The notes below the pieces were generated by a model. That model was not told the DNA's origin, ran no database searches, and saw only the letters and a program-made list of their open reading frames with translations. Of a DNA stretch of 64,000 nucleotides, positions 804 to 60,699 are shown one piece after another (positions within the stretch are counted from its first letter, which is position 1; each line of letters begins with the position of its first letter). The stretch is from assembly GCA_024734495.1 (NCBI GenBank), contig JALMQS010000153.1, forward strand, positions 10,680,299 through 10,744,298. The letters run 5' to 3'. Position numbers and translations under genes: made by a program. The stretch is from Forficula auricularia. Its lineage: Eukaryota > Arthropoda > Insecta > Dermaptera > Forficulidae.

Positions 804-1286
804 TAAAAGGAATCGGAAGGAATTGGATAAATTAAAACACAGAGTTGTTATTAAGTGGGCCCGACGTTTCGTCAATTTATTTTGACTTGCTCAGTGGCTC
901 ATTTTATTACTCTTTGTCAAAAACAGTTTTTCTATAAGACAAAACATCATATTATATTCATCGATCTTTCTATAGCATATTCTTGGCTCACAATAATCTT
1001 GAAAACGACTTTTTTCTCTAACAATTAAGGTATATTTGTATAAAAACGACAACATTTTTTAATTGTTAAAGAGAAAAGTCGTTTCCAAGATTATTATTGT
1101 GAGCCAATAATATGCTAAAGAAAGATTGATGAATATAATATGATGTTTTGTCTTATAGAAAAATTGTTTTTGACAAAGAGTGATAAAATGAGCTACTGAG
1201 GAAGTCAAGATAAATTGACGAAACGTCTGGCCCACTTAATAAAAACTCTGTGTTTTAATTTATCGAATTCCTTGCGATTTCTTTTA
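804..1286. repeat. Long inverted repeat (about 480 bp hairpin)
   Basis: Two arms of roughly 225-230 bp, joined near 1029-1058, are reverse complements with scattered mismatches. For example, CACAATAATCTTGAAAACGA on the left matches the complement of the segment near 1080-1100. Both arms carry the hammerhead-like motif: minus-strand copy 865-894 (core changed to CUGAGCA) and plus-strand copy 1196-1225 (perfect core). No coding capacity. The arm divergence suggests an older insertion. The type is probably a non-autonomous retroelement related to the other motif-bearing palindromes, but that is inference. Confidence 0.8.
1196..1225 (+). other. Hammerhead-like core motif
   Basis: The sequence reads CTGAGGA, one extra A, a perfect 5-bp stem GTCAA/TTGAC around a GATAAA loop, then GAAACG. 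This matches the hammerhead order CUGANGA - stem II - GAAA, apart from the extra base before stem II. Stems I and III were not established. Confidence 0.5.
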
Positions 1287-1289
1287 TTT

Positions 1290-1556
1290 TTGTTAAGGGA
1301 GAATGGTGTAGGTTCTTGGTGAAACATTAAATAAAGTAAAGAAAATTTTTGAAAATTTTTTTTAGAAACTTTTTAAAATTTAAAATATAAAATACTACGT
1401 AGGTTTCACATAAATATTTATGAATTAATTAACTAAGTTCTTATTATTTTTTTATAAATATTTATGTGAAACCTACCTAGTATTTTATATTTTAAATTTA
1501 AAAAAGTTTCTAAAACAAATTTCAAAAATTTTCTTTACTTTATTTAATATCTTCAA
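1290..1556. repeat. Family A hairpin element, copy 1
   Basis: The left end reads GGTGTAGGTTCTTGGTGAAA. It is followed by two arms (about 1322-1425 and 1450-1548) that are reverse complements, including GTGAAACCTAC and CTTTACTTTATT. The same end sequence recurs near 5920, 28990, 33165, 43615, 47925, 53110 and 59065, defining a dispersed family without coding capacity. Confidence 0.75.
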
Positions 1557-2048
1557 AACTTGTTAATAGAGTTGGTTTCATCAAAATCGGTAGAGCCGTT
1601 TTCAAAATAGAACTAAGATACAAATATATAAATAAATATATAAATTTGCTATAAGGTCCATATGTTTGATTCTTTGGGGAATCGAAACAGATGAATTTTG
1701 TTCGAATATTCAATAATAAATTTTATTTGGAATATTTAATGTTAACGTTAGATGAACGCGAAATTTAAAACTTTTGAATGTATATAAAATTTGATTATAT
1801 GACCTATTCGGGGCTCCATCGCTTAAATGGAAAAGGCATTTGCGGGCTTAACGCAGAGGATGCCGGATCATACCCGGCTGGGTCGTATCTTTTTCAACTC
1901 TTGGTTCAGTATCAAAACGAATCAGGTCCCAATCAATTGCACCAAAATAGGGCAGTGACCTGATAAAAAGTTTTAACTTTCGCGTTCATCTAAAGTTAAC
2001 AAAATATATAAATATATATACAATTTTTGCTCGTTTAATAAGATTAGA
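1557..2048 (-). mobile_element. Helitron-like 5' fragment, interrupted by a MITE
   Basis: Read on the minus strand from 2048, the sequence starts TCTAATCTTATTAAACGAGC, almost the same as the start of the element at 41220. It continues, after the inserted 1746-1995 MITE, with a segment near 1556-1680 matching the same element (CTACCGATTTTGATGAAA). A TC start next to a host A is typical of Helitrons. The 3' hairpin end is absent, so this is a fragment. Confidence 0.55.
1746..1995. mobile_element. 250-bp MITE flanked by TTAA
   Basis: TTAA at 1742-1745 and 1996-1999 brackets inverted ends of about 35 bp: GTTAGATGAACGCGAAA on the left against TTTAGATGAACGCGAAA on the right strand. The interior is GC-richer than its surroundings and has a 61-codon frame that I consider non-coding. 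TTAA targets are used by piggyBac-type and some other superfamilies; the superfamily is not assigned. It sits inside a Helitron-like fragment, so it is younger. Confidence 0.7.
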
Positions 2049-2139
2049 TAGATAGATAAACAATTGACCCCATCTATAAATTTTGTTTCTTAATTATCTC
2101 CATAACAACGCTCTCAGGATCAACCCTCTTCGGGGTTTA

Positions 2140-2290
2140 TAAATATGAAAATTCTTTGGGCGCTCCTACAAGTGTTCAAGCTCTCTCGGCTGCATTCTGT
2201 TACGATGATCTTAGATTCATATTATATATAGTATAGACTGTAATTTCTGAAATTAGTTTACAATTTATTTTCAAGAAAAATTAATTTTCT
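2140..2290 (+). repeat. Dispersed repeat, intact counterpart of the Jockey target
   Basis: About 130 bp here (AGTGTTCAAGCTCTCTCGGC through TGTAATTTCTG) is repeated at 3650-3732 plus 4547-4610, where it is split by the Jockey-like insertion. It has no coding content. Its value is that it shows the pre-insertion sequence. Confidence 0.75.
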
Positions 2291-3732
2291 ACTTTCTAAA
2301 TTATTTTGTGATTAGATTCAAATTTTTAACTTTAATGTTTGTATACATATGTATGGTAATATGTGCACGCCAAAATATCAAAAACTAATTATCTGATTGA
2401 GCGTGGCTGCTCTGGCTTTCCATGCGCCCTAGAAGTGTTCCGGAAAGCAGAGGAGAGGAGGACTTTCAATTTTCATCGCCTATAGCACGAGCTAACATAA
2501 TTATAACGAGTTTAGAGATAACATTAGAAGATAGAAGCTTAGATTAGAGTTAGGTGAATTATCTAAATGATTATTTAGAACAAAATGCATGTATAAACTT
2601 TAATTAAATTTATCCGTAAGTTTGGAAAGCCCACTCGCAGGACTAACGAAAAGTTTTGAGTTCACCTGAAAATTTTTATTTTTTTATTTATTCGTATTTA
2701 GAAATGTCTAAAACACATGGAAAAATCATTTTCACAGTTTTTTTGTCAATCTGTCTGGATTAGGGATGGCAATGATATATCGATTATTTTTTTATAACGA
2801 TATATTTCCAAAATGTATCGATATACTCCTTGCGATATACATCGAATATCGATATATGTCTTGCAATATATATCGAAAAATATATAGAAATTTTTTTCAT
2901 TTGCAAATACCAAAAGCAATTTTTTAATTGTACAATATTACACGAAATTTTTTTCACAACATCACAACTATTAAAAAATACTTTGACTAGGTACTCTAAA
3001 CTCAAAAAAATAAAAATTTATGTTATGTATTCTAATAGAGAGGCGAAAAAATACCTTAATACTAGAAAAATAGCGACAAAAAATCGCAGCCATCTGGCTG
3101 GAAAAAGACTATCCAAGCTTTTGTTTTTGGATTCATTTTGTGGAAAGTAGTTTTTTTCATGTTTTTTGTGTTTTTTTAAGTTCATTTTTAAATTTAAAAA
3201 AACGTACTCGACATGACTACTGTTTTTGTTATATAACCTTAGGTGAAATTATCTTTGAATATAAAAAAAAATTGTATTTTAAAGATTAAATTATTTTTAC
3301 TATCATAGGATGTTTTTATTTCTCAATGAGTTACAATTACTGGTTAGTTTTGTCTGTATCTTCGACAGGCAAAACTCGTCTACAATTTACCTGGGCTGGA
3401 ATTTTGAATTCACTAGCTTTTTTATATGATGTTTAGAAATGTCTGAAACTTGAAGAAAAATAATTTTCAAGGATGTTTTTTTCTGTATGCCTGTTTCTGA
3501 ATCCGGGTTAAGATACCTAAAATAACGCAACAATGGGAAGTAGGGTAATGCTTATTTTGGGTATTTTTGAATTTTTGTGCATCAAAGGCTCATATGGTTC
3601 GAAATAAATAAATAAAAAAAATTCTGCATGCTTCAAGTCTCTATGAAAATTCTTCGGACATTCCTTTAAGTGTTCAAGCTCTCTCGGCTGCGTATTGTTA
3701 TGATGATCTTAAATTCATATTACATATAATAT

Positions 3733-4546
3733 TTTTTTTTTTATTAACTCTTAGTGAGTTCAGCAATCTTCCTGAAAAGGCAATAAGCGTTTGTTATGAC
3801 TTATTATTACAGTTATAAAACAATTAAGAATTAAAAACAAAAATAATAATTTTAAATTTACTGACATGTAGAGTATCCCTCCAGTGAGGGATCTCTCTTA
3901 CAAAATCTTATTATATAATATTTCATGGATTTCCTCAGTCTTTACCATCTAAGTCCTGAAGTCAAGTCGGATGGCATCAGGCGTTTCAATCTGCGCACTT
4001 CACTACTGGGCATATTTAGTCTGTTGGCTAACACATTAGGATGCACTAACGCTCTTTTGGTGTATTTTTCACTGAAGCGAAGTATGGCCTCCTTGACACT
4101 TTCCAATGATGAATTATTTTGTTGGAGACGTAATAAGGCGCGTCTGCGATGACACGCAACATTTTGTTTTGGAACCTTTGTATGATGCTAATGTTGGAGA
4201 TACTGGCGGTGCCCCACAGCTGAATTCCGTAAGTCCAGACGGCCTTAAGAATAGACTTGTAAAGTAATATCTTGTTATCCAAAGATAATCTTAATTTACG
4301 GCCAATAAGCCAATACATGTTGCTTAGTTTAAGTCCTAATTGCTTCCGTTTGGTCAATATATGTTTTCTCCAAGTAAGGCGGCGGTCTAAGTGAATGCCG
4401 AGGTATTTGGCATCTTCGGCTTGTGGGAGTTCACAGTTGTTGATTTTCACAGGAGGACATGTTTCTCTACGTAGTGTAAATGTGACGTGCGTTGACTTAC
4501 TTTCATTGGCTTTAATACGCCATACTTTTAACCAATGCTGGATTTA
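3733..4546 (-). mobile_element. 5'-truncated Jockey-like non-LTR retrotransposon
   Basis: The element lies on the minus strand. Its poly(A) tail appears as a T run at 3733-3742 and its truncated 5' end is at 4546. The 12-bp direct repeat TACATATAATAT at 3721-3732 and 4547-4558 is the target-site duplication. It interrupts an older repeat also present at 2140-2290. It encodes the last part of a reverse-transcriptase ORF and a short 3' UTR. Variable-length duplication, 5' truncation and an A tail are hallmarks of target-primed reverse transcription. Confidence 0.92.
3942..4545 (-). pseudogene. Jockey-type reverse transcriptase, C-terminal fragment
   Basis: The minus-strand translation shows the end of a Jockey-clade RT/thumb region. 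In order it has WRIKANESKSTHVTFTLRR, then YLGIHLDRRLTWRKHI, then LLYKSILKAVWTYGIQLWG, then RFQNKMLRVI. A frame change near 4045-4050 leads into HPNVLANRLN and RRLKRLMPSDL, with a stop at 3942-3944. The endonuclease and the catalytic YADD part are missing because of 5' truncation. Together with the frameshift, that makes it a dead copy. Family assignment rests on recognised sequence character, not on a search. Confidence 0.88.
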
Positions 4547-5904: not shown

Positions 5905-6117
5905 TTTTAAGGATTTAGGTGTCGGTTCTAGGTGAAACATTATAAATAACTTATGAGGAGAATTTTCTAGGTTAAGTTTCACAAAAAGGAAATATATTAA
6001 AACAAATGTATGTTTTTTTGAGTTTGATTAGCTCGATATATATTTCGGGTTACTAGCCCATCTTCAGCAGTTCAAATAAAAAAAAAAAAAAAAAAAAAAA
6101 AAAATTCTCCTCATAAG
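5905..6117. mobile_element. Family A element with a 16-bp target duplication
   Basis: TTAATTAATTCGCAAT occurs at 5889-5904 and 6118-6133 and directly brackets 213 bp. That interval starts with the family A end (GTTCTAGGTGAAACATTA) and closes with AATTCTCCTCATAAG, the inverse of an internal segment near 5947. It carries a minus-strand hammerhead-like motif (6043-6067) and a long A run (about 6079-6103). A long duplication and an A run point to retroposition rather than cut-and-paste. Confidence 0.82.
6043..6067 (-). other. Hammerhead-like core motif
   Basis: The minus strand reads CTGAAGA, one extra T, stem GGG/CCC around CTAGTAA, then GAAATATA. The core is intact apart from the extra base before stem II. 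Confidence 0.5.
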
Positions 6118-11514: not shown

Positions 11515-12270
11515 TGTTCAACTGTCCCTCTTAAAATATATCCTCACTTGGTTCTTAAATTGAATCAGGCTTGATGCATTTCTCACTTCAGCTGGTAAAG
11601 AATTCCTCAAGTTCTCTAAAATATAATGTATTTCTTGTGCCCTCTCAATAAATATACCGTCTCTAATTCTCGTCTCATGGTCATGGATCTCGTTGTGAAA
11701 TTCAGATAGGCTGGCAGCAGCCTATGATATAATTTAAATACAAAACACATTGTCTGTAAAAATAAGAATTGCTTCACATTCATAAGTCCTAAGCATATAT
11801 TCACTTATTGATATATATCTGTCACATTTTAATATAAATCTCATGCATCTATTTTGTAAGAGTTGCAGCTTATCATCTCCTGAGTGCCTAATATATAATA
11901 TTGTAGGACATTAAGAGAAACTAGGACTAATTATAGTTCTATACACCTTAATTCTAGTGTTCATATTCAAATTATTGCTAGCTCTACCAAAGTATTGTAC
12001 TTTTCTGTCTACATTCTTCAAGAAGTAATGGCTCACTATGATGACTCTTAAAGTTCAAATTCGAGTCAACCACTACTCCGAGGTATTTAAATGAATCCAC
12101 ATATTCTAAATTTACACCATTTAGATAGATTGGACTTAACCCTTCTCCACCCACCCCCAATTGCACTACTTTAGATTTCGTACAATTTATATACAGTTTA
12201 TTCATATTTAGCCAGTCTTCCAACTGCCTAAGGGTTCCATTAATTTCTGACAAGCCCTCTCAACTCTCCC
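11515..12270 (-). pseudogene. Non-LTR reverse transcriptase, C-terminal remnant
   Basis: Minus-strand frames read in order: QLEDWLNMNKLYINCTKSK, then YVDSFKYLGVVVDSNLNF (the conserved K-Y-L-G-V block after the catalytic region), then KLQLLQNRCMRFILKCDRYI, then SLPAEVRNASSLIQFKNQV, closing near 11515-11525. Several shifts and stops interrupt it. It is a 5'-truncated and decayed LINE, different in sequence from the Jockey-like copy at 3733. The clade is uncertain. Confidence 0.8.
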
Positions 12271-13332: not shown

Positions 13333-13688
13333 TAAACATTCACGTCATTGCATTGACTTAATTTTCTAATTGCTCAATTTACCCATACCCTTGTTAAACT
13401 TACTCTCCCTATGGCGTAGGGTGGGCATGTCTGTGCTTTTTCACTTAATCTAATGTAGCTCTTAAATAGATCCGGATTTAGAATTGTTAAGGCCCTAAGA
13501 TATTTGAGATATGGGGCACTTTATAAGTCCAGATATTATATGTCGGTTCCAAATATGATTTTCGGATACCTAGAGGGTTAAACTGAAATACAATTAAGAA
13601 GTATATAGATAGTGAAATAATAAATCTTTAATTTATTATTACAGTATAACAAAATTGTAGTAAACTGATAAGAACTCGTTATTAAATA

Positions 13689-14412
13689 TTGATGAAGCTC
13701 TATAATACTCTGAGGTATATGAGTCAAACCATTGACTAGGATGTAGTTGTCGGTTGGCACAGGGTACTTCTCCCATAAGAAATGAAAGAATTTTTTTTCT
13801 GTTTTTGGTTCTTATATATTTTTTTTAGGAGTAGACGTTTCGACAAGTATGCCTTGTCATCATCAGCCTATAAAGTAAATACAAAACAAGGAACTTGAAT
13901 ATAAATTTGTCATGAAGAGAAACCATGCAATTAATTGAACATTAACAGTAAAAATAATCAAGAATATAAAGTGATGACTTATTATATGATATATTGAACA
14001 CAAGTAAAATTAATTTATACCTATTTCCGTTTTTTCATCAGTATACAATTTTTACTGTATAGAAATAGGTATAAATTAATTTTACTTATGTTTAATATAT
14101 CATATAATAAGTCATCACTTTATATTCTTGATTATTTTTACTGTTAATGTTCAATTAATATGACCTTGCATGGTTTCTCTTCATGACAAATTTATATTCA
14201 AGTTCCTTGTTTTGTATTTACTTTATAGACTAATGATGACAAGGCATACTTGTCGAAACGTCTACTCCTGAAAAAAATATATAAGAACCAAAAACAGAAA
14301 AAAATTTCTTTCATTTCTTATGGGAGAAGTACCCTGTGGCAACCGACAACTACATCCTAGTCAATGGTTTGACTCATATACCTCAGAGTATTATAGAGCT
14401 TCATCAATATAT
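13689..14412. repeat. 724-bp near-perfect palindrome with paired hammerhead-like motifs
   Basis: Arms of about 345 bp (13689 to about 14032 and 14056 to 14412) are reverse complements with few differences; the loop lies around 14033-14055. Matching words include GGATGTAGTTGTCGGTTG and its complement. Hammerhead-like motifs occur at 13836-13866 (minus) and 14230-14260 (plus, with CTAATGA in place of CTGATGA). Frames reading through it are symmetric artefacts. The high arm identity suggests recent formation or gene conversion between arms. Confidence 0.88.
13836..13866 (-). other. Hammerhead-like core motif
   Basis: The minus strand reads CTGATGA, one extra T, a perfect 6-bp stem GACAAG/CTTGTC, then GAAACGTC. 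It is one of the best examples in the window. The mirror copy at 14230-14260 has lost the G of CTGATGA. Confidence 0.55.
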
Positions 14413-14637
14413 ATCTTTAACTTAAAATCATTTTTATTCATAACAAACTTAAAAATGCAAACTCTGGTAAAAAGAAACACAAATTATTTTAAAAGGCATA
14501 ATTTACAAAAAAAAATGGGTGAATAGTATGAGACGTTCCGGTCGTGCGGCATTGGGACAAATAATGCTGCAGTATATTTAAGTATATATGACAATTTTTT
14601 GGGGGGTCCCTAAGCTATAGCTTGAGTAGCTTATATA

Positions 14638-15885: not shown

Positions 15886-16174
15886 TTAAACCACATAAAG
15901 TACATGAACATCGTTTTTTTTAATATCTTCTTGTTCATGTGTTTACATTGCCTTTTAATTTATTTTAGAATACTTTTATATTGTTAGATTGTTTATAAAA
16001 AGGGCTCAAAGGGAAAGAAACACATGTGCTATGCCTTTTGGTGATATTAAAAAACAAAGCAGCTATTTACTCTAGAATCTGACATTATATTTAAGCTAAT
16101 TCAAATTATATATGATAATTTCATAATGTGTATAAAATCTAAATTAATTTAATTTGTTGGTGTTGTTTTTTCAG

Positions 16175-16441
16175 AGATCTGCCAAATATGAGTTCGGTTA
16201 TGCCGTCCGTGACGGTGTCGGTGGCCAACAGGGTCATTTGGAATCCCGTGAGGGTGAATATGGCCTCGGATTATATTACGTGAATTTGCCAAATAGCGAG
16301 ACGAGTGTGCAATATTTCACCGATGGATTGGGATATCATCCATTGGTGCAGTACAGCAGCCAAGACTCTCCTGGATCGTCAACCAAAACACAATTTGCTC
16401 TAGGAAAGGAGGCTGTTCTTGCATTGAAAAATAATGCACAG
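16175..16441 (+). CDS. RR-type cuticular protein, chitin-binding exon
   Basis: Internal exon of 89 codons between TTTTTTCAG and CAG/GTAAAC, phase 0 at both ends. The encoded block begins AKYEFGYAVRD, continues GHLESREG and YYVNLPNSETSVQYFTDG, and ends GYHPLVQYSS. The order Y-x-F-x-Y, E-x-R-[ED]-G, G-x-Y, L-P, V-x-Y, D-x-x-G-Y is that of the Rebers-Riddiford (chitin_bind_4) domain, which binds chitin in the extracellular cuticle. The residues after it (QFALGKEAVLALKNNA) are a linker. It joins exon 19023-23144 in frame. A signal peptide must come from an upstream exon that I could not place. It does not fit RR-1 or RR-2 exactly, so subtype is left open. Confidence 0.85.
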
Positions 16442-19022
16442 GTAAACATTATTTAACACTTGAAAGGTAGTTCGTTCACAAATGCAAAAGTTCAAGAAGT
16501 CTTCGAAATGGAATATAAGTCATTGAAGGACTTTCACCATCTTGATGAAATACTAATATTTGTTAGAATAATATATTCGTAGTAACTTAAAAAAAATTGA
16601 AATTATTTACCTAGTAATTTTGATAAAAAATAAAAAAAAAACATATTTGGGCGATTATTTTTATTGGAGGGGATATAACAACAGTCACTTGGCAACGATC
16701 CATTCATATAGAGGATATAGTAGTGTGAGACGTACAGTCACGTTAAAAAACATAACTAAAACTTTAGCACGGTTCATATGTATAGAGTGGTTACGAGGCC
16801 AAAACTTTTTGTGTGGATTGTCGAGAAAGAACTACCTTAATATAAATTTAATTAAAAATTCGCTTTTTTTTAAGCAGGTAATGAATTTGTGTTCCATTAT
16901 CTTACTACTATTCAAATAAGTTTTTCCTTTTTCTCATTTATTTATTTAATAAAAATTGAAATTAATATAAGTAACAATATATTTTCTTTTATATCATATC
17001 ATAATATTCATATCAAATATATTTTTTTTTTTTTTTAAACAAAATTAATTTTAAATTTCTCATCCTTAATTCAAATGGAGAAAGAATTAAATTAAAAATT
17101 AACTTCTGATTTCACTCTGCATGGTATTCCAAACTCTTGAGGAAATTAATTAACGAGAGACCTTCCATATGAAGTAGTCCTGTGTAAAGGAATTTCTAGA
17201 TCAGATTTATCGAAACTAAATGTTCTAAAATTTGACTTTTTAAATAAAAAATTTTCATACAAATATGAAGATTTTAAATCAAGAAACTTCGGAATAGAAA
17301 ACAGCCAAGTAAATAGTATTTCCTTTTCGGCAATTATAACCAATTTAATTAATATAATAAGGCGTAATTTGTTCGTGTAGTGGGACATTAAATATGAATC
17401 AAAATTACGCAAGCGTTCAGGAGACGAGACAGCCTATATAGTCTTGTTCCATGTTGATATCATTTTAAAATTATGAACAATAATCAATAATGAAAACTCT
17501 GAAGAAAAAGTGAATCAACAAGTAGCTTTTTCATAGAGATCGGTAGGGAATTATTTGTTCTTTTCAGCTAATAGAGAGTTCCGAAAACGCATTTAGATAT
17601 AAACCCAAATATGGTAATATAAAAAGTTAAATTTTGGCAAGAAAATGTCTTATTTTATTGTGAATGAAAATTTCTATCAGGGAATTTTTTGAACAAAATC
17701 ATTTTAAATCTAAATTGAAGATTAAATTTAACAAAATTTAGTTAAATAATAAGTAAATTTATATTGAACCGAAATCTCCACGACCTTCAAATTGACAAGC
17801 TATTCAAAAAAACCAAACTTTTAAATTAATCTGTTCTTAATATCTCTGAGTGATGTTGTAATCAATGTCAGTAATTTAAAGATGAGAACCGAAATTTCCA
17901 GTATTTACATGCAGATCCGTCTTAAGTCTAGTGGGGACCCATTGCACTTTAGTATATATGGGATCCCTTTAAGAGAAATTTAGGATAGCTATTAACAGAA
18001 ACGAACAACATTATAGTTAGTATAATTTTTACTTTACCATACAGGGTATGGTCAAGTATTGTAATCGTGCATGAAATAAGTGATTTTTTTTCCTTCTTTT
18101 TTTCGAAATATCTCAAAAACGGCTTAAACTATTTTGATTAAAAAAAATTCAGCTAAACCATGGAATTTCGCTCTACAAAAAAGCTCTTATAAGTGAAAAA
18201 TTATATTTTTCGAGATAATAATTGTTTTGTCAAAATGTCTGTTAGTTAGTCTGGTTGTCTGGTGGTCCGTTAGTCTGTGCGTTACCAAATTTTTGTGGAC
18301 GAGCTAGCTCAAAAATCAGTGTGAATATCGACACCAAATTTCACACGTAGTTTTGGTCCAGTGAGATTAAGAGCTGATTAGATTTTGGTGCATATCGGCC
18401 CTAAATTAAGGGGGGTGGAGTTAAAAATTAAAAATCTAGGCCATTTGAGCAAACTCAACCAAATTTTGTATACATAATCAGTGGACCACAGAAGTCTAAA
18501 AATGCAAAAACTAACCGCCCAAAATGGGGGGGGGGGGTTTAGGGTCAAAAAATGAAAATCTTGGCCATTTATCAAACTCAACCAAATTTTGTATACATAA
18601 TCAGTGGGACACCAGAACTATAAAAATGCAAAAACTAACCCCCCTTCCTTACATGATTATAAATAATTTTAAGCCCCAGGTTGTATGGTAAAGTCAAGTG
18701 GATGGCCACATCAGAACACGTCAGCTTATTTATTTTTTTATTTGAAAATTTACAAGCATTTACTAAATCTACTTTCTAGAATAATCAGTGATTGTTGCGA
18801 ACAAAAATTCATTATCGGTTCGACTGCTGTAGTGTTGCAAAGGCTCAGAGGTCTCTAACCCAGCGAGCCAATGCTTAAAGTCACTCTGTAAATACATGTT
18901 TAAATAGATAAATAAATAAATACATTTATATATATATATATTTGTCTATAGTATAAAATATAATTTAACAATTATTCATAAAAAGAGTGGTATAATTATT
19001 CTATTTTTTTTTTTTTTTGCAG
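16442..19022 (+). other. Intron of the cuticular protein gene
   Basis: The 2581-bp intron runs from GTAAAC to a long T tract and TTTTGCAG. It contains AT-rich DNA and a family E element (18030-18735). Frames near 16620-16919 and 17146-17412 have no recognisable protein character. Confidence 0.75.
18030..18735 (+). repeat. Family E element, copy 2 (intronic)
   Basis: Starts near ACTTTACCATACAGGGT and ends with GTTGTATGGTAAAGTCAAG and a shared downstream word (AACACGTCAGCTTATTT). The termini are inverted (ACTTTACCATACA on both strands). It matches 7785-8460 throughout and, in reverse, 50640-51280. It also contains an internal duplicated block (AACTCAACCAAATTTTGTAT occurs twice). Confidence 0.7.
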
Positions 19023-22000
19023 AAATTGTCCTCCGGAGTTGATGTTAAAACTGGAAGAATGTTGGCGGCCGCCGCCGCTGCTGCTGTAGCTGCTGCAAAC
19101 ATACAACTAAATACAACTGAAAAAGCTCCTGAAACTTCAGAGGTCTCGACATCTGCTACAGTCGCGCCGATCTCTTTAGAAGACGAAGCAAATGTGAATA
19201 ATTTTGCATCTCTTGATGATGTTGAATTAAAAGCAGCACCATCGTCACATAAGATAAAATATGGAGTAAAATTGAAATCAGTTATCATTCGTGAGAATGA
19301 AAGTAACAATGAAAAGATACAAATAAGAAGTACAACACCATCGTACACTCCATTAAAACCAATAATCGTGGCTGATTTGGAAAGTGGGGAGACCCCTACA
19401 AGCCCTGAGCCAACTGAAGTAACAAACAATGAATTTACTGAAGAAGTTGAAGAATCGACACCAAAAGCCATTGAAATATCAAGTTCTTATTCAGCACCGG
19501 CCTCCCCAAGTGATCATTTGATAAGCCCACCCCCATCTGCTCCTCCTACAGATCCCACTGTTATTATCACCCCCAGACCTAATCAGCCAATTCTTACTCC
19601 ATCTGTAGTTCAGGCACAAGCCGCTCTAGCGCTTGTACCGCCAACTCAACAAACTGAAAAACAAGAAAAGACAATCAAATACAATACAATCGTTGAAGTT
19701 CATAAATCAATACCAATTGAATTAAATAATTTTCATCTCACAATTGAACATGATCCGTCAAGTAATAAAGCAGAAGATGGATTGAATGGCATTCCAGTTG
19801 AGTACATTCAACAACTCGTAGATGAAGGAGAGAGACAAATCCAGGAACAATTGGAAAAACACAAATCTAATAATAATTTGGATAATAAATCCATATTCTC
19901 ACCACAGGCTATTTCAAATAATAATAATAATAATAATAACTTAAATGAAGACAATGTTCAGAAAATCAATTTAGAAGTTCCAAGTGAACTTTCCCAAGCC
20001 GTTCCTGTTGAATATTCACCATCTACAGGAGATTATGTACGAGTAAATACAATTCAACAAATTGAACAAGCCTATCAATCGAAAGCTAAACAACATTTAT
20101 CCGAACCAATTGAAATTATCAGTCCAGTACGGATTGAACAAATCGAAACACAAAGTCAAAAAGAACAAAAATTATTAAAACAAGAAGAAGAAGATATACA
20201 GGATGTTCAAAAAGTGGAAGAAGAATCACAAAAAATTGAAGTTATTCATAGAATTAATCCCAGTGAAGAGGTTAATGAAGACAAACCAAAACAGAACGAA
20301 GAATACAATCAGCAGCCAATTCAGTTGATTCAACAATTAAACCCTCAACCTCAAGTACACATTCTAGTTCCCCAAGCTCAATATAATTATAATATTGTAG
20401 ATAATAGTGGACCCGAAGCTCTTCCATTAATATCACAACCTAGAGAATTTACTAGCCAACAAGATTCACAAAATTTACAAACAATTGAAGAAAATTCAAA
20501 AGAAACTAATCAGTATCAGTCAATAGATGCCACTCAACCAGCTTTTCAAAATTTACAAACAAGTTATGAAAATACTCAAAATAATGTTCAAGTTTTACAT
20601 CATCAAAAGATACAACAACATCAAAAACAACAAAATCAGCGACAGCTACCTAAAACTAGACAATCCATCAAAATCAACAATAATGAACATTCAAGGCCCA
20701 TTTTAATTGTTGAAGAACAACCACTACCTGAAGATTATACCAAGTTAAAACACAATTATGGCAACCATCAGCCTGTCTATGATAGGCCATATTCAGATGT
20801 CCAGTCACAAAAACAATATGCTCAAGACGTAGCTGAAGAGGAAAAACTTGCACAAACTGCCTTCCAGCAGCAACGACTTATAGCGCAAGATATTGAACTT
20901 CAAATTCAACAACAACAACAACACTTTGATGAACAACAAAACCAAATTCAGGGTTTGTTAGATATACCGCAACAGGTTTCACAAAAGGAACATAAATTTG
21001 AAGAACAACAAAAACAAATTCAAGGTCTATTAGACGTCTCTCAGGCGGGTGAACAAGTGGCTTATGAAAATTTACAAAAAAATGATGGAAATATCCAGAA
21101 TAATCAACAAGTATTTCAGCAACAAATACAACAGAATCAAGAACAACAAAATCAGCGTCAATCAATGGATTCATTTCGTCAGGTTGAACAAGTAGTTTTT
21201 CAAAATTTACAAACAAATGAAGCAAATACCCAAAATAATCTGCAAATTTTAGAACAACAAATACAACAAAACCAAGAACAACAAAACCATCGACAATCAT
21301 TAGATTTTACTAGACCAGTTGAACAAGTGATTTTTCAAAATTCCCAAACAAATGATGGAAATATCCAAAATAATCTGCAAATTTTAGAACAACAAATACA
21401 ACAAAACCATCGACAATCATTAGATTTTACTAGACCAGTTGAACAAGTGATTTTTCAAAATTCCCAAACAAATGATGGAAATATTCAAAATAATCAGCAG
21501 CCCTTACAGCAACGAATACAACAAAATCAAGAACAACAAAACCATCGACAATCATTAGATGTCTCCAGACCAGTTGAACAAGTGATTTTTCAAAATTTCC
21601 AAACATATGATGGAAATATTCAAAATAATCAGCAACCCTTACAACAACAAAAACAACAAAATCAACCACAACAACCAAACCCTACACAATTTCAAACGGC
21701 TCAACAACAACAACAACAACAACAACAACAAAATGATCCCAGAAAAATTATCTCCAGTCAAACTTTGAAGGCAGCTAGAGAAGGTTATCCTAAAGATCCA
21801 AATGAAAAAGTAAAAGAAATAGAAAATAAATATAACGCACAATTAATAGAAGAAATGAAACAAGATCAAGTAAATTTCGCTCGGTTATTGGCGGTAGCTG
21901 ACTTTCAGATTCAAAAAAATGAAGGATTACTCCCTCCTTATGAAATTCAACTTAGTCTAGACCCACCCAATCAACATGTTCAAATAAATCCGTCATCAAT

Positions 22001-38499: not shown

Positions 38500-38807
38500 T
38501 GTCGGAGGTAGAGTCGACCAGGGTTTAAAGAGGCAGCTGAATTATCTGTCACCCAAAACAGCGTTCGAGAATCGCGCCACTTCAGTTGACATTTCAGAGA
38601 CTAGAGTTGTTCCGAAAAAGCTCGACAGGCTCTCGGAGGGGGGGCGGCTGCCGAGGACAAGGGATTCTCGAGGAGCAGGATTAGTTTGGCAAGGAACGAC
38701 ACGGGGGTCTTGTGTTTGGTGTCAGTGTGCGTGCCGCGGGACTTGATGGCCTCTTCTAACCTTGAGATGATTAATTGAATGCTGAGGACTGCCTACAACT
38801 ACGAAAT
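38500..38807. repeat. 308-bp direct repeat, right copy
   Basis: Copy of 36357-36666. Here the sequence upstream (38418-38499) continues the GC-rich context, so this may be the more complete copy and the left one a 5'-shortened duplicate. Confidence 0.85.
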
Positions 38808-39750: not shown

Positions 39751-40742
39751 CACATACTCATATAAACACGTCTATTAAAGTCAAATAACGTCTGGCTAAA
39801 TTAACTAGTACCTATCATAGGCAAAATAAGTAAATAAATAAATATTTAGTTATTTAATTATAAATAAATAAATATTTAGTTTATTTATGTAGGTAATTGA
39901 CTCGTTCAATCCCTTATAGTTTTTGTTTTATATGGATCTTTTTAAAAATATTTTTCCAAACCTTCATATTTTTAGAGGGCATAAATAAACTATAAAAATG
40001 AATTATTTTAGAGAATATTATTATTATTTTAATTATTCTATTTATTGATTTATTAATATAGGTAATAGCCCGTTCATAGCATTTAGGATTTTACGAGTTT
40101 TTTTAATTAATATTTTTTTATAATTTTATTTTCAATATATTCACAAAATCCTTCTTTAATAGTCTCAATAAGTGTTCTATTTTATTAAACAAATTAATGT
40201 GTGTTCGTTATTTAGATTTATCTTTATTTAGGCTTCTTAAAAAAAATCAATTTCTTTTTGCTATTATTCAATCAAAAATATAATTTTCCAAAAGCGATTC
40301 TCTTCAATCGAAAAGCGAGCTAATTCTAATAAAATTATATTGTTTAATAAATATAACGAAGAAAAAGACTTCTGTGTTTTTCCATTGAAAATTGAGAAAT
40401 CATTTAATTTTAATTTTCGGGTAAATCTAGAAGATAGTATTTATCGCTATAGAAAGGAAAAATATTCCCAGGGAATAGAATTATGCTAGAAAAGCGCTTT
40501 TTCCATTAAATTCAATTTTTTTAATTGAATAATTCGACCAGATGGTGACGTCATGGCGCCTAGTTCAACAAGTTGAGACGTGTTTTTAATCTTGGCCCTC
40601 ATTAACTCCCTATTTGATAATCGGCCACTAGCAAAGTGCGAGCGAGTCAGTTCGAGCTCCAAGCAACATCTCTCCCCATTTGAACCCAAAATTAAGCAAA
40701 TTCTTGTTAAATTTTGAGATAGTTATTTTTTAAAAATAGCTA

Positions 40743-40975
40743 TTTGTTTAGGTTTAAAATAAGACACGTGCAGCTTCAATTTTTCTTTTTATTTATTTCT
40801 CAATTCCCACTAACGTTTCGCCCATTGGTTATGGCCATCTTCAGAGCGGGAATAACCAATGGCCGAAACGTTAGTGGAATTGAAAAATAAATAAAAAGAA
40901 AAATTGAAGCTGCATGTCTCTTAATTTAAACCTAAACAAATAAATTACTACAGCTATATAAAACTCCCTCAATAA
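40743..40975. mobile_element. Palindromic element with hammerhead-like motif
   Basis: Arms of about 90 bp (TTTGTTTAGGTTTAAA through CACTAACGTTTCG and the complement) surround a loop near 40840-40855. AAAAATAGCTAT at 40732-40743 and 40976-40987 is a probable 12-bp target duplication. A minus-strand motif is at 40814-40844. The right arm retains GGCCGAAACG but lacks the CTGAAGA part. Confidence 0.75.
40814..40844 (-). other. Hammerhead-like core motif
   Basis: CTGAAGA, one extra T, a stem formed by GGCCAT and ATGGGC (one mismatch), then GAAACGTT. The opposite arm carries the uncorrupted ATGGCC half. Confidence 0.5.
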
Positions 40976-41219
40976 AAAAATAGCTATATTTGAATTTTTA
41001 AAACTAATTAATCATTTGAAGTTAAATTTTATATTTGGAATCGATGAGAAATATGAAAATTCAAAAGTGAGATACCTTAAGCTATTTAATAATCTATGTA
41101 TGGTTTCTCAAACTTATAATTATATTTGTTGAAATGGATAATGATAATATTTGGATATCATAAATATTTAAAAGATTCTTTCTTAAAACTATTTTATTCT
41201 CTCCTTGTATGGTAATTAA

Positions 41220-43478: not shown

Positions 43479-43604
43479 ATACACATACATTTAAAATAAA
43501 TACAAAATATAAATCTAGCCAATTGAACCAATAATTATGAAATTTTAAATTTTAGAAGCTTATTATTTTCACTAATTTTACTCAATTGATATATTTTTTT
43601 TAGT

Positions 43605-43880
43605 TTTTAAGGAATTTGGAGTTGGTACTTGGTGAAACATTTTTTAAATTATTGCATAAAAAATACTTGGTAGGTTCACTTTAAGATATTAAAATAAAAC
43701 AAATTTATTTTTGGAGAGACTTTAACTCGATATATATATTTCGGATGGCTAACCTACCTTCAGGAGCAACAGAAAGTAAAAAATGGGTTAGCCACCCGAA
43801 ATATATATATATCGAGTTAAAGTCTTCCAAAAATAAATTCGTTTTATTTTTAATATCTTAATGTAAACTTACCAAGTATT
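43605..43880. repeat. Family A hairpin, copy 5
   Basis: Left end GGAGTTGGTACTTGGTGAAA and ATACTTGGTAGG. Inverted arms contain GACTTTAACTCGATATATAT and its complement around a loop near 43763-43780. A degenerate hammerhead-like word is at 43738-43762 (minus; CTGAAGG then GAAATATA). Confidence 0.72.
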
Positions 43881-44051
43881 ATTTATCTAATATATCAATT
43901 GATAATGTTTCAAGATTTTTATTTAATATTATTGGTTAATTTTTAGTTTATTCTAATACTTTTTTAGTTTTATCATAAATTTTTAATGTAAGGATACCTA
44001 ATATGTATTTACCTAATGTGAGATAAGTAATTTTTTTTATTTTCTTTTTAG

Positions 44052-47590: not shown

Positions 47591-47741
47591 TTTTATTCTA
47601 GCTATATGTAAATAATACAATCATTTAATAACAATCGGAAATACAAATATTAATTTTACAAACGTTTGGACCTTTATCAATGGAAAAAGTCACAAATTTC
47701 AGTTGCTTTAAAAAAGAATAATAATAAAGTTACGTTGAATT

Positions 47742-47960
47742 TTATTTAATAAAGTAAAGGGTGTGTAGTTTCACAGTGAATGAAATAAAACTCAAAGAGG
47801 TTTATACAAACTCAATATATTTCGGATTATTAGTCCATCATCAGGAGTTTACAGGTTGAAACTGTTTTATTTCATTCACTGTGAAACTACACACCCTTTA
47901 CTTTATTAATTAATATCATGTTTCACCTAAAACCTACACCACTTTCTATAAGTAAAATTA
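47742..47960. repeat. Family A hairpin, copy 6, with hammerhead-like motif
   Basis: AATAAAGTAAAGGGTGTGTA and its complement near 47885-47908 form the arms. The single-copy middle holds CTCAATATATTTCGGATTAT and the motif at 47820-47844 (minus: CTGATGA, T, GGA/TCC stem, GAAATATA). The right end reads TTTCACCTAAAACCTACACC. Confidence 0.72.
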
Positions 47961-49940: not shown

Positions 49941-49962
49941 TCAGTTAAAGAAAACTGTTTAG

Positions 49963-50472
49963 TTGATACAATTTTGATGGCTGTATATGTATATAATTAA
50001 GTAATGGAGAGGGATTCAGCCAATGGGTAGCCTCTGCTGAATAAAAAACTCCCAATTATAGAAAACGTTTCGGCTTTAATTAAATAATGCCATCATCAGT
50101 TCCTAAGAGTTGATGAGTCCTTGAAGACGAGCGCCATATTTGTGTATAAGGTGTCCGAGCATGATGATATTCCTCAATGGTTATAAAGTTGATACAATTT
50201 TGATGGCTGTATATGTATATAATTAAGTAATGGATTTTACTTAATTATATACATATACAGCCATCAAAATTGTATCAACTTTATAACCATTGAGGAATAT
50301 CATCATGCTCGGACACCTTATACACAAATATGGCGCTCGTCTTCAAGGACTCATCAACTCTTAGGAACTGATGATGTCATTATTTAATTAAAGCCGAAAC
50401 GTTTTCTATAATTGGGAGTTTTTTATTCAGCAGAGGCTACCCATTGGCTGAATCCCTCTCCATTACTTAATT
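49963..50472. mobile_element. Penelope-like candidate: 236-bp perfect arms, X-Y-X-X'-Y' layout
   Basis: Flanked by the 14-bp duplication AGAAAACTGTTTAG (49949-49962 and 50473-50486). Arms 49995-50230 and 50237-50472 are each 236 bp, separated by 6 bp, with about one visible difference. A 45-bp block X (starts TTGATACAATTTTGATGG) occurs at 49963-50007 and again at 50189-50233, around the 181-bp block Y. The inverted half carries X' (incomplete), Y' and a 13-bp stub of X'. Both Y arms hold the hammerhead-like motif (50066-50099 minus; 50368-50401 plus). No protein is encoded. Variable-length duplication with tandem and inverted terminal repeats resembles the complex termini of Penelope-like elements; that assignment is inference. 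Confidence 0.85.
50066..50099 (-). other. Hammerhead-like core motif
   Basis: CTGATGA, one extra T, GGC/GCC stem with an AT-rich loop, then GAAACG. In the mirror copy at 50368-50401 (plus) one C-to-T type change breaks the stem (GTC against GCC). Confidence 0.55.
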
Positions 50473-50639
50473 AGAAAACTGTTTAGATAGGCAGCAAGGA
50501 ATCGAACCTAGATCTTTAAGGTAGTTTCTCTTTATGAATTATTTATTTTCTAATTTAATGTTTAAAATTGTTTGTCTCTTAAGAAGAGGCCTTGGAAGGA
50601 AGAGGCCCGGGTTCAAGACTGGATCACTGTAAAAAAAGT

Positions 50640-51280
50640 AACCGGCAATAATCTGACCCCTACGCCAATTTAAAAACACACACAACACACATTTTTTGAT
50701 CCTCCCCTATTTTGGGTGGTTAGTTTTTGTATTTATAGCCTTCTAGTGACCCTCAGATTATGTATACAAAATTTGGTTGAGCTTGGTCCAAGAGCAAGAA
50801 TTTTCATATTTTGACCCTTCCACCCCCTTTTGGGTAGTTTTTCCGGGAATTTTTTTTAAACAAAAGTTGTCAGAAATCATATCCCCTACAACTTTGCTCA
50901 TTATAAAATGGGCCTATCTCCTTGGGAACCAAACCCAAGGGCCAACTTTGCTATCTGGGCATTTGGGATTGATACAGAGGTTTGTCTTTTATTGAATTTT
51001 GACCCTTCCACCCCCCTTTTGGGTAGTTTTTTCCGGGAATTTTTTTAAACAAAAGTTGTCAGAAATCATATCCCCTACAACTTTGCTCATTATAAAATGG
51101 GCCTATCTCCTTGGGAACCAAACCCAAGGGCCAACTTGCTATCTGGGCATTTGGGATTGATACAGAGGTTTTCCTTTTATTGACCTATATAGTAAGTGTA
51201 TGCACAAATCTAGGATCAAGCCAACCCGAATAGCAAGTTGGCACTTGGGTTTTACTCCTTAGGCGATGAGCCCTTATGAC
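50640..51280 (-). repeat. Family E element, copy 3 (inverted, rearranged)
   Basis: The sequence around 50700-50810 (GTGGTTAGTTTTTGTATTTA, ATTATGTATACAAAATTTGG) is the reverse complement of the right part of 18030-18735. The remainder is occupied by a tandem duplication. Confidence 0.6.
50811..51186 (+). repeat. 188-bp tandem duplication
   Basis: TTGACCCTTCCACCCCC starts at 50811 and at 50999. The two units are nearly identical, differing by single-base indels in homopolymers. The event is recent and lies inside a family E copy. Confidence 0.93.
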
Positions 51281-53205: not shown

Positions 53206-54545
53206 TTAAGAAAAAAATAAAACCGACTTCAAAAAATTAAATGCAACAAATAAAAATTTTTAAGAAAAAAATATAAACCGACTTCAAAAAATTAAATGCA
53301 ACAAACAAAATACACTAAAAGGTATAAAATAATTATTATCTTATTTAGTTACAACTAAACGACGAAATATTAACACGAAATTACTTTTTAAAGTCGGTGC
53401 CAAACAAACTATACCTATATGCGAGCGTACCCGCCAAATCGTACTAAGTAAGATCCGTCGAGTGCGATTCATAAAAGGTATAGTTGTTTGGCACCAACTT
53501 CAAAAAGTAATTTCGTGTTAATATTTCGTCGTTTAGTTGTAACTAAATAAGATAATAATTATTTTATACCTTTTAGTGTATTTTTATTTGTTGCATTTAA
53601 TTTTTGAAGTCGGTTTTTATTTTTTCTTAAAAATTTTTATTTTTTTCTCTTTTTATGTTTTTAATAGTGATTATATCATCAGAACTTGACCAAATTAATA
53701 TGACACCATCCCTAAGACACCCCCTTTCGGATAAAAAAAGAACCATCAAAATCGGTTCATAAACAAAGAGGTTAGGTCTAAACTAACCTAATAAAAAAGG
53801 TCTAATACCTATGAAAAAATCGAAAAAAAAATGGGACCAATCGGAAGCTTTTTTTTTTTTTTTTTTTTTTTTGTGCCTATGTTACCTCATATCTCCGCCA
53901 ATTCTCAACCGATTTTGAAAATCTTTTTTGCATTGGGTCCAGTCTAGCTTCCGATTGGTCCCATTTTTTTTCGTATTTTTTTCATAGGTATTAGACCTTT
54001 TTTATTAGGTTTGTTTAGACCTAACCTCTTTGTTTATGAACCGATTTCGATGGTTCTTTTTTTATCCGAAAGGGGGTGTCTTAGGGATGGTGTCATATTA
54101 ATTTGGTCAAGTTCTGATGATATGATCACTATTAATAACATCACTAAAAAGAGAAAAAATAAAAATAATTTTTAAGAAAAAATAAAAACCGACTTCAAAA
54201 AATTAAATGCAACAAATAAAAAATACACTAAAAGGTATAAAATAATTATTATCTTATTTAGTTACAACTAAACGACGAAATATTAACATGAAATTACTTT
54301 TTGAAGTTGGTGCCAAACATATACCTTTTATGAATCGCACTCGACGGATCTTACTTAGTACGTTTGGCGGGTATGCTCGCTTATAGGTATAGTTAGTTTG
54401 GCACCGACTTCAAAAAGTAATTTCATGTTAATATTTCGTCGTTTAGTTGTAACTAAATAAGATAATAATTATTTTATACCTTTTAGTGTATTTTATTTGT
54501 TGCATTTAATTTTTGAAGTCGGTTTTTATTTTTTTCTTAAAAATT
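53206..54545. repeat. Family B compound palindrome (about 1.34 kb)
   Basis: Two hairpins (53260-53625 and 54180-54545; arms with CAACTAAACGACG, stem-end AACCGACTTCAAAAA) flank an inverted pair (53654-53845 against 53947-54155). The inverted-pair arms contain GACACCATCCCTAAGACACC. A T run and about 75 bp of unique sequence form the centre. The left hairpin starts with a short direct duplication of the GACTTCAAAAAATTAAATGC segment. No coding sequence. The single-arm equivalent lies at 32440-33020. Confidence 0.85.
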
Positions 54546-54904
54546 ATTTTTATTATTTATTTATGGAGAATACTTTTAAGACGTGAGTGAGTGAGGGTGT
54601 TTAAAAAAATTAAACTTTTAAGGGGATGCAACAAGGGAAAACTTCTAAAGCCACATTTTAACAAATCTGAAATTAGAAATCTTCTCTTAATCCATAAGAG
54701 AAAATTTGAAAGAAAAAATTGAAGTTATTACAACACTTGGTACGCTCTCTTCAAATTTTTTTTTAATTTTTGTTGACTTTAGACGTAATTTATTTTTAAT
54801 TTATTTATTAAAGGTTTTAATTTTATAAATTTTAGGCTTGATTTAATTTCACAAATTAAGCGAATCGAGTAATTTCAGCTAATTAGCAATATTCATTTCA
54901 TAGA

Positions 54905-59155: not shown

Positions 59156-59174
59156 CCCTGATGGTTATTTAAAC

Positions 59175-59420
59175 TATATTGTATTTTTATGACTATGTGT
59201 TTTAATTTAGAATCACACAAACGAGACATTTTACAAATGAAGATTGTTTGAGAGAAATATTTAGCACGATGTTTAGGTATGTCAGACATTGTCAAGGACT
59301 GGTATTTTTGGCAATTGGGCTCTACTCCCGAAGGAGTGAAAAAGAACTCTTCAGACATGTAATTAAAATTATCCATTCCATCTATTAGATGATAAGTTCT
59401 CTTGATTTCCTCAGAAATTT
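59175..59420 (+). repeat. Family D element, copy 5 (degraded)
   Basis: TTTAGAATCAC, TTTACAAATGAAGATTG, TATTTAGCACGATG, then GGGCTCTACTCCCGAAGG (decayed B box), ATCCATTCCATCTATTAGAT. The order is that of the right arm of other copies. Confidence 0.55.
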
Positions 59421-59424
59421 AAAG

Positions 59425-60170
59425 TCTACTACTATCAACGATTTGAACTCTTCTATAAATAAATATTATAAATAATTGTTCATAAATAAACATTTATTTT
59501 TTAGTGAAAAGCATTAAAAAGAAACTAGTGAATTACTAAATTTCAAAAACATAACGCAATCAAAATCAAGTTTTCTTTTAATTTCGGTTTCCACTTTCTC
59601 ATAGGTCATAGCAATGATCAACGTATCGTGGAAGCAATGGTCATGTTTGGCCATGACCTGGGCTCTCTGGCCCTTGATCTTGAAATCGTCGCGATCCTTC
59701 CTTTTCCGTCACACACACAGACACAAATTACTATCAGTGTCTTTTCCACAAATCGTTCTCTCTCTCTTCTTTCGAAGAGAAAGTAGAACAGACAAGTTTG
59801 TTGGGTGGACTTCACCTGTAGGTAACCGTATGCTACTTTCACACGAGTTCAATGCCACCTGCTGGGATTACTTTTAATTAATTATGATCAAGTTATAATT
59901 TACATCAAAACATTCGCCTTTATAAAAGTGTAAAAAAAAAAATATTTTAGTTTCACTTTCATTTAATTCTGATATCCTTGAAGTTCACAACATTTGACCT
60001 TAAGTAATTTCTCTTCTCTCATAACTCATAAATGACTTTACTTTTTGCCTAGTAGCTGAAAATCACCTTAAGTGGAAAATTATAATAATAATAATCTACT
60101 TATTATAATCGGCTTGCGGGACGACGCCGACGTGATATTTTTTTAATTTTAAAACCCACTAATAGTTCAT
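59425..60170. other. No recognised gene
   Basis: Two overlapping frames on opposite strands (59614-59877) show no domain. Nothing else was identified. Confidence 0.35.
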
Positions 60171-60174
60171 GAAG

Positions 60175-60470
60175 GATGGATAAAATAAGATCTGAAGAAA
60201 TATAGAGAAGGACAAAAACGTTGAATATTAAAATCTACATAAAGAAAAGAAAATGGAACTGGGCTGGTCACATTTTCAGGATGAACGATGGAAGATGGAC
60301 CAAAACGGTAACAGAGTGGTGCCCATTGGACCTCAAAAGGAAGCGGGGAAGACAACCCAAAAGATGGTCTGACGACATCGCGGAAGTGGCTGGCAAGGAC
60401 TGATGCAGAGTGGCAAGACAAAGGAAAGCGTGGACAAATTTGGGATATGCCTATGCCTTAAGGGGCCTGG
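60175..60470 (+). pseudogene. Non-LTR retrotransposon ORF2, extreme 3' end
   Basis: The frame reads KKRKWNWAGHIFRMNDGRWT, then TVTEWCPLDLKRKRGRQPKR, then WSDDIAEVAGKD and, past a stop, RVARQRKAWTNLGYAYALRG. This block (W-x-W-A-G-H-x-x-R, then K-R-x-x-G-R-P, then W-x-D-D) is the conserved C-terminal tail of many insect LINE polyproteins. The stop after GKD and the 5' truncation show decay. The tail of the copy continues in an A-rich sequence to about 60540. Confidence 0.85.
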
Positions 60471-60666
60471 TACAATAAATAATTAACTATGTATATATTA
60501 TGTAATAACCAAAAAAGGCTATAAATAAACAAATAAAATAGTTTATGACAAATCAAATTTATTAAAATCAGGAAATTTAAATTTTTATTTTAAACTGTAT
60601 TAGATGAAGGAGGAGGTATCAGCCAAAGATGGAATCACTGGGTTCAATAAAACACCTTTAATAAAA

Positions 60667-60699
60667 CGTTTCGGCCTGAATTTATTTGGCCATCTTCAG
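60667..60699 (-). other. Hammerhead-like core motif (solo)
   Basis: CTGAAGA, one extra T, perfect 4-bp stem GGCC/GGCC, then GAAACGTTTT. It stands alone, without a palindrome, in a short block (60640-60760) that has counterpart words GAAACGTTTTCTATAAT near 50400. Confidence 0.55.

Follow-up and report, generated by a model that had tools for sequence, protein, structure and literature searches.

Putative minimal type I hammerhead ribozymes with an extra core base in palindromic, Penelope-like insertions of Forficula auricularia

We analysed a window of 64,000 nucleotides of Forficula auricularia DNA (assembly GCA_024734495.1, contig JALMQS010000153.1, positions 10,680,299 to 10,744,298 of the forward strand), in which an original prediction had pointed to eleven sites with a hammerhead-like core as a candidate variant class of ribozyme. 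Our results favor the hypothesis that these sites are minimal type I hammerheads in the pseudo-long terminal repeats (pLTRs) of Penelope-like elements (PLEs) and in non-coding derivatives of such pLTRs, a reading to which, judging from the sequence, we assign a probability of roughly 0.9. By analogy with published PLE ribozymes, they probably work as dimers. The idea of a newly recognised class is not supported, as PLE terminal repeats have already been reported to carry minimal type I hammerheads that lack the usual helix III and may act as dimers (PMC7761336, PMC6155905; here and below, what is said of published work refers to the portions of the papers available to us). The present case is an unusually large and uniform example of that published class, and its most unusual trait is an A or U inserted after A9. 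What stands out against the class as published is this near-universal extra base, the copy number and the missing matches to Rfam models.

Structure and abundance of the motif

Direct readout of the eleven stretches gave the predicted letters in the predicted orientation at 11/11, that is CTGANGA or a one-base variant, one inserted base, a short stem-loop and GAAA (the core of the site at 43738-43762 has its true start at 43763). The core is exact at eight sites and carries one change each at 865, 14230 and 43738; the inserted base is A at 865 and 1196 and T at the remaining nine, and GAAA continues as GAAACG at eight sites and as GAAATA at 6043, 43738 and 47820. In RNA order the proposed ribozyme would run from stem I through CUGANGA, the extra A or U, a stem II hairpin, GAA, a helix III word and the cleavage base H17 back to stem I, with helix III and its loop replaced by a self-complementary word (ACGU, (AU)n or ACUAUAGU). 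The putative hammerheads, with their predicted cleavage bases, are as follows:

853 to 904, minus strand: hammerhead 865, with its stem I strands; insert A, helix III ACGU, cleavage base C at 863, core G8 changed to C
1186 to 1237, plus strand: hammerhead 1196, of the 865 family; insert A, cleavage base C at 1227, core exact
6025 to 6077, minus strand: hammerhead 6043, AU type; insert U, helix III (AU)4, cleavage base C at 6035, poor stem I, adjoins a poly-T tract
13824 to 13876, minus strand: hammerhead 13836; stem II of 6 bp, helix III ACGU, cleavage base C at 13834, stem I out of register only
14220 to 14272, plus strand: hammerhead 14230, second copy of the 13836 family; core CTAATGA (one mutation), cleavage base C at 14262
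40802 to 40854, minus strand: hammerhead 40814; stem I of 9 bp, insert U, stem II with one mismatch, helix III ACGU, cleavage base U at 40812
43719 to 43773, minus strand: hammerhead 43738, AU type; helix III (AU)5, cleavage base C at 43729, stem I of 4 bp, A9 and 10.1 mutated
47804 to 47854, minus strand: hammerhead 47820; stem I of 9 bp (two G-U), insert U, helix III AUAUAU, cleavage base U at 47814
50054 to 50109, minus strand: hammerhead 50066; insert U, helix III ACGU, cleavage base U at 50064, stem I of 4 bp
50358 to 50413, plus strand: hammerhead 50368, partner of 50066; stem II broken at 10.2, cleavage base U at 50403
60655 to 60709, minus strand: hammerhead 60667, single; insert U, stem II GGCC/GGCC, helix III ACGU, cleavage base U at 60665

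The sites had been described as members of unrelated palindromic families. For the sequence of most of them this is so, but 6043 is a relative of 43738 (about 70%), and 60667 occurs singly, with no inverted partner in the self-comparison of the window. Its family is frequent among the genome matches listed.

A core scan of the window, requiring a stem of at least 3 bp and controlled by 100 first-order Markov shuffles, found six exact matches with one inserted base (CTGANGA, one base, stem, GAAA) against a shuffle mean of 0.11 and a maximum of 1 per shuffle. With zero inserted bases there was none (mean 0.05), and with two there was one (mean 0.09), namely 40814, whose second stem pair is a mismatch and which is scored as a two-base insert. 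When one core mismatch was allowed the counts came near chance: 6 against 2.18 with one inserted base, 4 against 2.41 with none and 1 against 2.37 with two. Five of the eleven sites lie outside the exact set of six. Besides 40814 these are 865 and 14230, recovered solely with one core mismatch, and 43738 (A9 = G, 10.1 = A) and 50368 (stem II broken), both missed by the core scan. A scan for all parts of the motif gave four exact matches with one inserted base and one with two (again 40814), both against 0.0 per shuffle, and two matches with two core mismatches against 0.29 per shuffle.

Three structural features, stem I, the helix III remnant and H17, bear out the identity of the sites as hammerheads. 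Pairing in the window was tested with one site for each of 8 families, the partners being swapped between families in 40,320 permutations. Stem II keeps its pairing while its bases change, as predicted: 27 of 32 first-four pairs form, against a mean of 18.5 (8/40,320 permutations). Stem I, which the prediction did not include, pairs at 26 of 32 first-four positions against 15.5 with swapped partners (44/40,320), and its contiguous runs (4, 0, 1, 9, 4, 9, 4 and 3 bp across the families, those of 9 bp at 40814 and 47820, with 6043 and 13836 failing) go beyond those of swapped partners (8/40,320). A retest on genome sites fetched for unlike stem II (20 sites, 19 usable, L093 left out) gave 56 of 76 first-four stem I pairs against a mean of 34.0, reached in 0/20,000 shuffles and in 1/20,000 when L091 was removed; these sites are not independent, as L083/L094, L077/L090 and L085/L091 look related. 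Genome loci obtained earlier, clustered more coarsely into 8 families, gave 25/32 against 14.0 (3/20,000), and four families unlike any in the window gave 14/16 against 7.5 (854/20,000). At two loci (L070 485-516, minus strand, and L085) stem I of the 865/1196 family is a perfect 10-bp helix, and for this reason the two window copies look decayed.

After GAA, a self-complementary helix III word stands at 11/11 sites (ACGU at eight, (AU)3 to (AU)5 at three). This is far above background, since only 168 of the 1,166 GAAA in the window (14%) are continued by a palindromic word and then a base other than G. The base after the word, H17, is C or U at all eleven sites and is preceded by U16.1; in the extra genome set a non-G H17 with U16.1 before it occurs at 16/19. 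Folded as monomers without constraint, 865 and 40814 form stems I and II around an open core, and 47820 forms both stems plus three extra core pairs.

The extra base, predicted to be invariant, is near-invariant genome-wide. In the assembly of 1,061,512,967 bases and 845 contigs, with the reversed pattern as control, CTGANGA-(A/T)-G...CGAAACGT occurs 49,636 times (control 3), CTGANGA with C or G at the inserted position...CGAAACGT 955 times (control 0) and CTGANGA-G-(not G)...CGAAACGT, with no inserted base, 166 times (control 6). A or U thus follows A9 in 49,636 of 50,757 counted motifs, a figure that covers ACGU-type motifs with a G-C first stem pair only and in which any no-insert motif beginning GG would fall among the 955. 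Many of the C/G and no-insert matches, among the 100 listed for each, resemble point changes or deletions of the motif with A or U. The register of stem II was compared in 30 strings, picked by eye as unlike from 100 among the matches listed: positions 2-4 pair in 76/90 cases with one inserted base, in 38/90 with none and in 32/90 with two, and position 10.2 takes G-C, U-A, A-U and C-G. An extra core nucleotide has a viroid precedent, which implies no relation by descent: De la Pena and Flores reportedly described in 2001 a viroid hammerhead with one such nucleotide, said to lie after A9 in the type III motif of chrysanthemum chlorotic mottle viroid. A start-codon reason for the extra U, which with G10.1 would make AUG near the open reading frame start reported for the anole element, was considered and is not supported, because the frames close within about 12 codons (window, by eye) and the insert is A in many families.

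Published PLE minimal hammerheads (Cervera & De la Pena 2014; Lunse, Weinberg & Breaker 2017) likewise lie in terminal repeats, lack the usual variable part of helix III and occur in thousands of dispersed copies, and cleavage as a dimer has likewise been proposed for them (PMC7761336). The A or U after A9 is the apparent difference. It goes unmentioned in the available portions of the papers citing these two studies, to which the comparison was confined.

Palindromic insertions and Penelope-like elements

The palindromes fit the anatomy of PLE insertions, with a head-to-head inverted pLTR, an optional one-sided tail and a short target duplication. Those of the window and their associated repeats are listed here, the palindromes themselves bearing no strand:

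792 to 1296: palindrome I3 (865/1196 family), head-to-head, 3' ends outward; flanking direct repeat never over 7 bp
13683 to 14413: palindrome I1, head-to-head, holding 13836 and 14230
40744 to 40975: palindrome I17, head-to-head; inverted partner begins in loop II; one-sided tail at 40943-40975
40732 to 40743 (left) and 40976-40987 (right), plus strand: 12-bp direct repeat of I17, candidate target duplication
43592 to 43894: palindrome I15, head-to-head; tail at left; 10-bp direct repeat TCAATTGATA at 43582-43591 and 43895-43904
47739 to 47940: palindrome I23, head-to-head; arms 47739-47791 and 47864-47916; tail motif at right (47918-47940)
49963 to 50472: palindrome I2, near-perfect head-to-head, 226-nt unit; left tail 49963-49993 equals unit start
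49949 to 49962 (left) and 50473-50486 (right), plus strand: 14-bp direct repeat of I2, candidate target duplication
1305 to 1327, minus strand: tail motif ATGTTTCACCAAGAACCTACACC; the window holds 8 such motifs when up to 5 substitutions are allowed

In these copies the motif lies near the 3' end, and tails and direct repeats are present in part of them. Orientation was examined at 100 places among the matches listed, which are the first of the genome and not a random sample. Neighbours within 1,200 bp were arranged minus-plus in 21 cases, plus-minus in 0 and minus-minus in 8, all 8 belonging to one tandem array, and a limit of 2,500 bp added two plus-minus pairs. The ribozyme strand points outward on both sides, and therefore two copies are joined at their 5' ends. 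The join point varies: the motif is in both arms in I1, I2 and I3, and the centre falls in loop II in I17, at stem II in I15 and 3' of the motif in I23. Because of the centres of the last three, the notion that ribozyme-cut 5' ends meet at the palindrome centres found no support and was rejected.

Flanking direct repeats were scored in 24 palindromes, 6 from the window and 18 fetched minus-plus pairs hand-picked among the matches listed, and compared with 552 mismatched flank pairs. Under a placement rule that was fixed after viewing the data (repeat placed at the end of one arm and no more than 60 bp from the end of the other), repeats of at least 12 bp were found in 10/24 palindromes against 1/552 controls, and repeats of at least 10 bp in 12/24 against 15/552; without the rule, repeats of at least 12 bp were found in 12/24 against 2/552. 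Among the repeats of at least 12 bp, those of L050 and I15 are not at arm ends and were counted only without the rule; L033, which duplicates the repeat of L032, and I9, whose arms are not simple, were left out. Direct repeats of 12-16 bp and one-sided tails of 22-47 bp characterize the ten well-placed palindromes, and the window repeats measure 14 bp (I2), 12 bp (I17) and 10 bp (I15). The other window places of the tail motif are 5918, 28989, 33153, 43618, 47918, 53114 and 59066. It adjoins further palindromes, for example at 1320-1555 and 29026-29168, and these are taken for 5'-truncated relatives without ribozyme.

A link with Penelope-like retroelements had been suggested, and copies in the same genome that encode reverse transcriptase (RT) and GIY-YIG domains do carry the hammerhead with one inserted base. 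A genome search for GIY-YIG (PF01541) gave 3,423 first-look candidates, and 150 were scored and matched; RVT_1 with a C-terminal GIY-YIG was present in 5/5 frames scanned (397-864 aa), the RVT_1 of L073 being under the Pfam cut-off. At locus L063, two 858-aa frames stand in tandem about 2,909 nt apart, each with such a hammerhead just upstream whose helix III word is ACUAUAGU. The motif was found at 12/12 chosen GIY-YIG places, picked mostly for long frames, and, in three sequence families, at 10/12 best-scoring places (shuffle mean 0.4), the two without it being L051 and L052. Both sets together have it at 20/22 distinct places; they overlap at L061/L073 and L057/L074, and two pairs, L055/L056 and L057/L058, seem to be duplicates. 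A single inserted base was favoured or required in these scans, and the unbiased comparison is that of the genome counts by insert. A third PLE-linked motif, with core CTGTTGA (one mismatch) and helix III AGCU, lies next to GIY-YIG matches at L055 2655-2686 and L056 486-517.

At locus L065 the direct pLTRs measure 265 bp (99.6% alike), the inverted pLTR stands head-to-head and bears a 42-nt tail, and both ends carry a 12-bp direct repeat. The same arrangement has been reported for Penelope of Adineta vaga, where direct pLTRs, an adjacent head-to-head inverted pLTR, palindromic junctions, solo pLTRs and target duplication likewise occur, with a 31-bp tail on one of these pLTRs and a 9-bp target-site duplication (PMC3846280). 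The two cases differ in that the available text of that paper never says 'hammerhead', and in that the window copies here are non-coding. The one-sided tail fits the anole PLE, whose purified protein cleaves and extends both strands and whose two reverse-transcription starts mark the tail (PMC11167929). Placement of the hammerhead in a terminal repeat is seen at PLE families of the same genome; the window families are linked to no coding element.

Proposed mechanism and competing explanations

On the model of published PLE work, cleavage, dimer action, assistance by the protein and priming at both ends of the target may be expected. The loopless helix III word would allow two ribozymes to pair through it and to cleave as a dimer, probably aided by the PLE protein; a palindromic helix III permitting dimers has been noted for other hammerheads (PMC3088659). 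Reverse transcription would start at the 3' end, about 60-150 nt downstream of the motif (by eye), and an alternative start about 30 nt further on would give the tail. If the RNA were copied onto both ends of a staggered target break, the product would be a pair of copies, each truncated at its 5' end, that meet 5' to 5' and point their 3' ends outward, flanked by target duplications.

Several observations weigh against reading the sites as PLE hammerheads in this way. Stem I is missing in register at 13836/14230 and poor at 6043, and 3/19 of the extra genome sites carry G at H17 when ACGU is taken as helix III. At 11/11 sites the drawn hammerhead dimer is less stable than the two strands folded together without constraint, and with other pairings thus preferred, two-strand folding was dropped as dimer evidence. 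A long palindrome would, moreover, presumably fold on itself and hide the ribozyme. The flanks of I1, I3 and I23 hold no direct repeat over 9 bp, and 14/24 palindromes are without a well-placed 12-bp repeat. None of the window elements resembles the L065 pLTR at the nucleotide level (E 1e-5), and no PLE coding sequence was found in the 30 frames scanned of 225 window stop-to-stop frames of at least 55 aa. Comparison with the Rfam hammerhead models, proposed as a check, gave no hammerhead family for the window and six fetched loci, either at the gathering score or at E 10. The strongest microRNA matches below threshold fall on the palindromes; the missing hammerhead match is a property of the library, not a structural feature.

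The loci L077, L078 and L090 are hammerhead-like sites with G after ACGU. By eye, a longer helix III word (ACGUGU) together with a shifted stem I would restore the rules at L077 and L090.

Ribozyme mutants of the anole PLE insert normally in vitro, and that study detected no RNA ending at the cut site (PMC11167929). This counts against a need for cleavage and leads to the suggestion that the motif now serves solely as a hairpin which the protein recognises for reverse transcription, its catalytic activity being lost or of no importance; the need of the protein for cleavage (PMC11167929) and the minimal helix III point the same way. However, families with unlike stems jointly retain the catalytic letters, stem I and the base that follows helix III, which exceeds what a hairpin needs, and we consider the suggestion distinctly improbable (the site searches preset the core letters, so that conservation of the core is a condition of the search). 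To fold-back DNA transposons or miniature inverted-repeat transposable elements with chance hammerhead-like letters at their ends, already disfavoured, we give hardly any credence. Long inverted repeats, some flanking direct repeats, non-coding sequence and high copy number would suit such elements, but not the one-sided tail, the 3'-outward orientation tied to the ribozyme strand, the variable 5' truncation at the centre, the 60667 copy without inverted partner, the like motif at RT and GIY-YIG elements or the pairing kept across families.

Retrozyme-like replicons are another matter. Here the ribozyme would free unit-length linear or circular RNA, the circular RNA would be the true template and the PLE enzyme would be borrowed. 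The 50066 family forms a 226-nt tandem array of 8.0 copies with 99% matches and no indels, and the tail of I2 is identical to the start of its own 226-nt unit; a retrozyme-like RNA template is therefore possible for this family. Metazoan non-LTR retrozymes likewise consist of short non-coding tandem units with type I hammerheads, give circular RNAs of about 170-400 nt, a range that includes the 226-nt array, and have PLEs as candidate helpers (PMC7229834). Nevertheless, their motifs are canonical type I (PMC7229834), whereas the ribozyme here is of the minimal type with one inserted base; a single array was examined, and seven other loci of the family share mainly unit positions ~118-247 or 118-274 and not whole units; I2 ends away from the cleavage site (by eye); and, unlike in retrozymes, inverted pairs outnumber arrays among the matches listed. 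Such replicons thus seem to us an unlikely explanation. A conserved module beginning with the ribozyme, to which the 50066 family had pointed, was rejected, as conservation is gradual in the 60667 family. The remaining alternative concerns the palindromes only, which the A. vaga paper, for like structures, explains by self-priming on an antisense template (PMC3846280) and not by two-ended priming. Self-priming would not alone yield two 3' ends at both flanks, the PLE enzyme described in 2024 extends both strands in vitro (PMC11167929), and truncation of the partners in I15, I17 and I23 falls at different points, as expected of two independent copies. We therefore regard self-priming as rather doubtful.

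Within the preferred reading of minimal type I PLE hammerheads, a wider proposal can be made tentatively, at somewhat less than even odds. The extra A or U may mark a fixed hammerhead subclass, found in two or three PLE families and a dozen or so repeat families and serving loopless dimers and protein aid; the palindromes may be single two-ended copying events; and some short units, such as that of 226 nt, may be PLE-dependent retrozymes.

Neighbouring features and significance

Several further features of the window were noted. A 107-bp tandem repeat at 37775-38421 has six copies (99% alike), and a flanking sequence at 36357-36666 recurs at 38500-38807 (99.4%). Nested palindromes at 53228-54586 and 32445-32796, up to 97% alike between places, are possibly another inverted family, and the core and all-parts scans of the window list no hammerhead at either. 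Two tandem copies of a 189-bp unit at 50808-51183 are related to sequences near 8200 and 18400. A weak RVT_1 match (0.0068) at 11987-12259 (minus strand) is perhaps a decayed retrotransposon fragment; the frame at 4049-4543 (minus strand) resembles it by eye and has no Pfam match. An insect cuticle protein domain (PF00379, 6.5e-6) lies in the frame at 16148-16453. The plus-strand frame at 19017-23144, 2.5 kb after it, encodes 1,375 glutamine-rich, repetitive amino acids without Pfam match and perhaps belongs to one gene with the cuticle-protein frame; a 1,362-aa query from it (19056-23141) found no homologue at E 0.001 among 7,983 candidates scored.

In conclusion, reading the raw sequence alone revealed a structured RNA that the Rfam hammerhead models miss. 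The F. auricularia genome offers about 50,000 natural copies in which a hammerhead with almost no helix III can be tested. Because the extra base is so sharply constrained and the insertions are head-to-head with their 3' ends outward, two questions of PLE biology become testable, namely the role of the ribozyme and two-ended priming.

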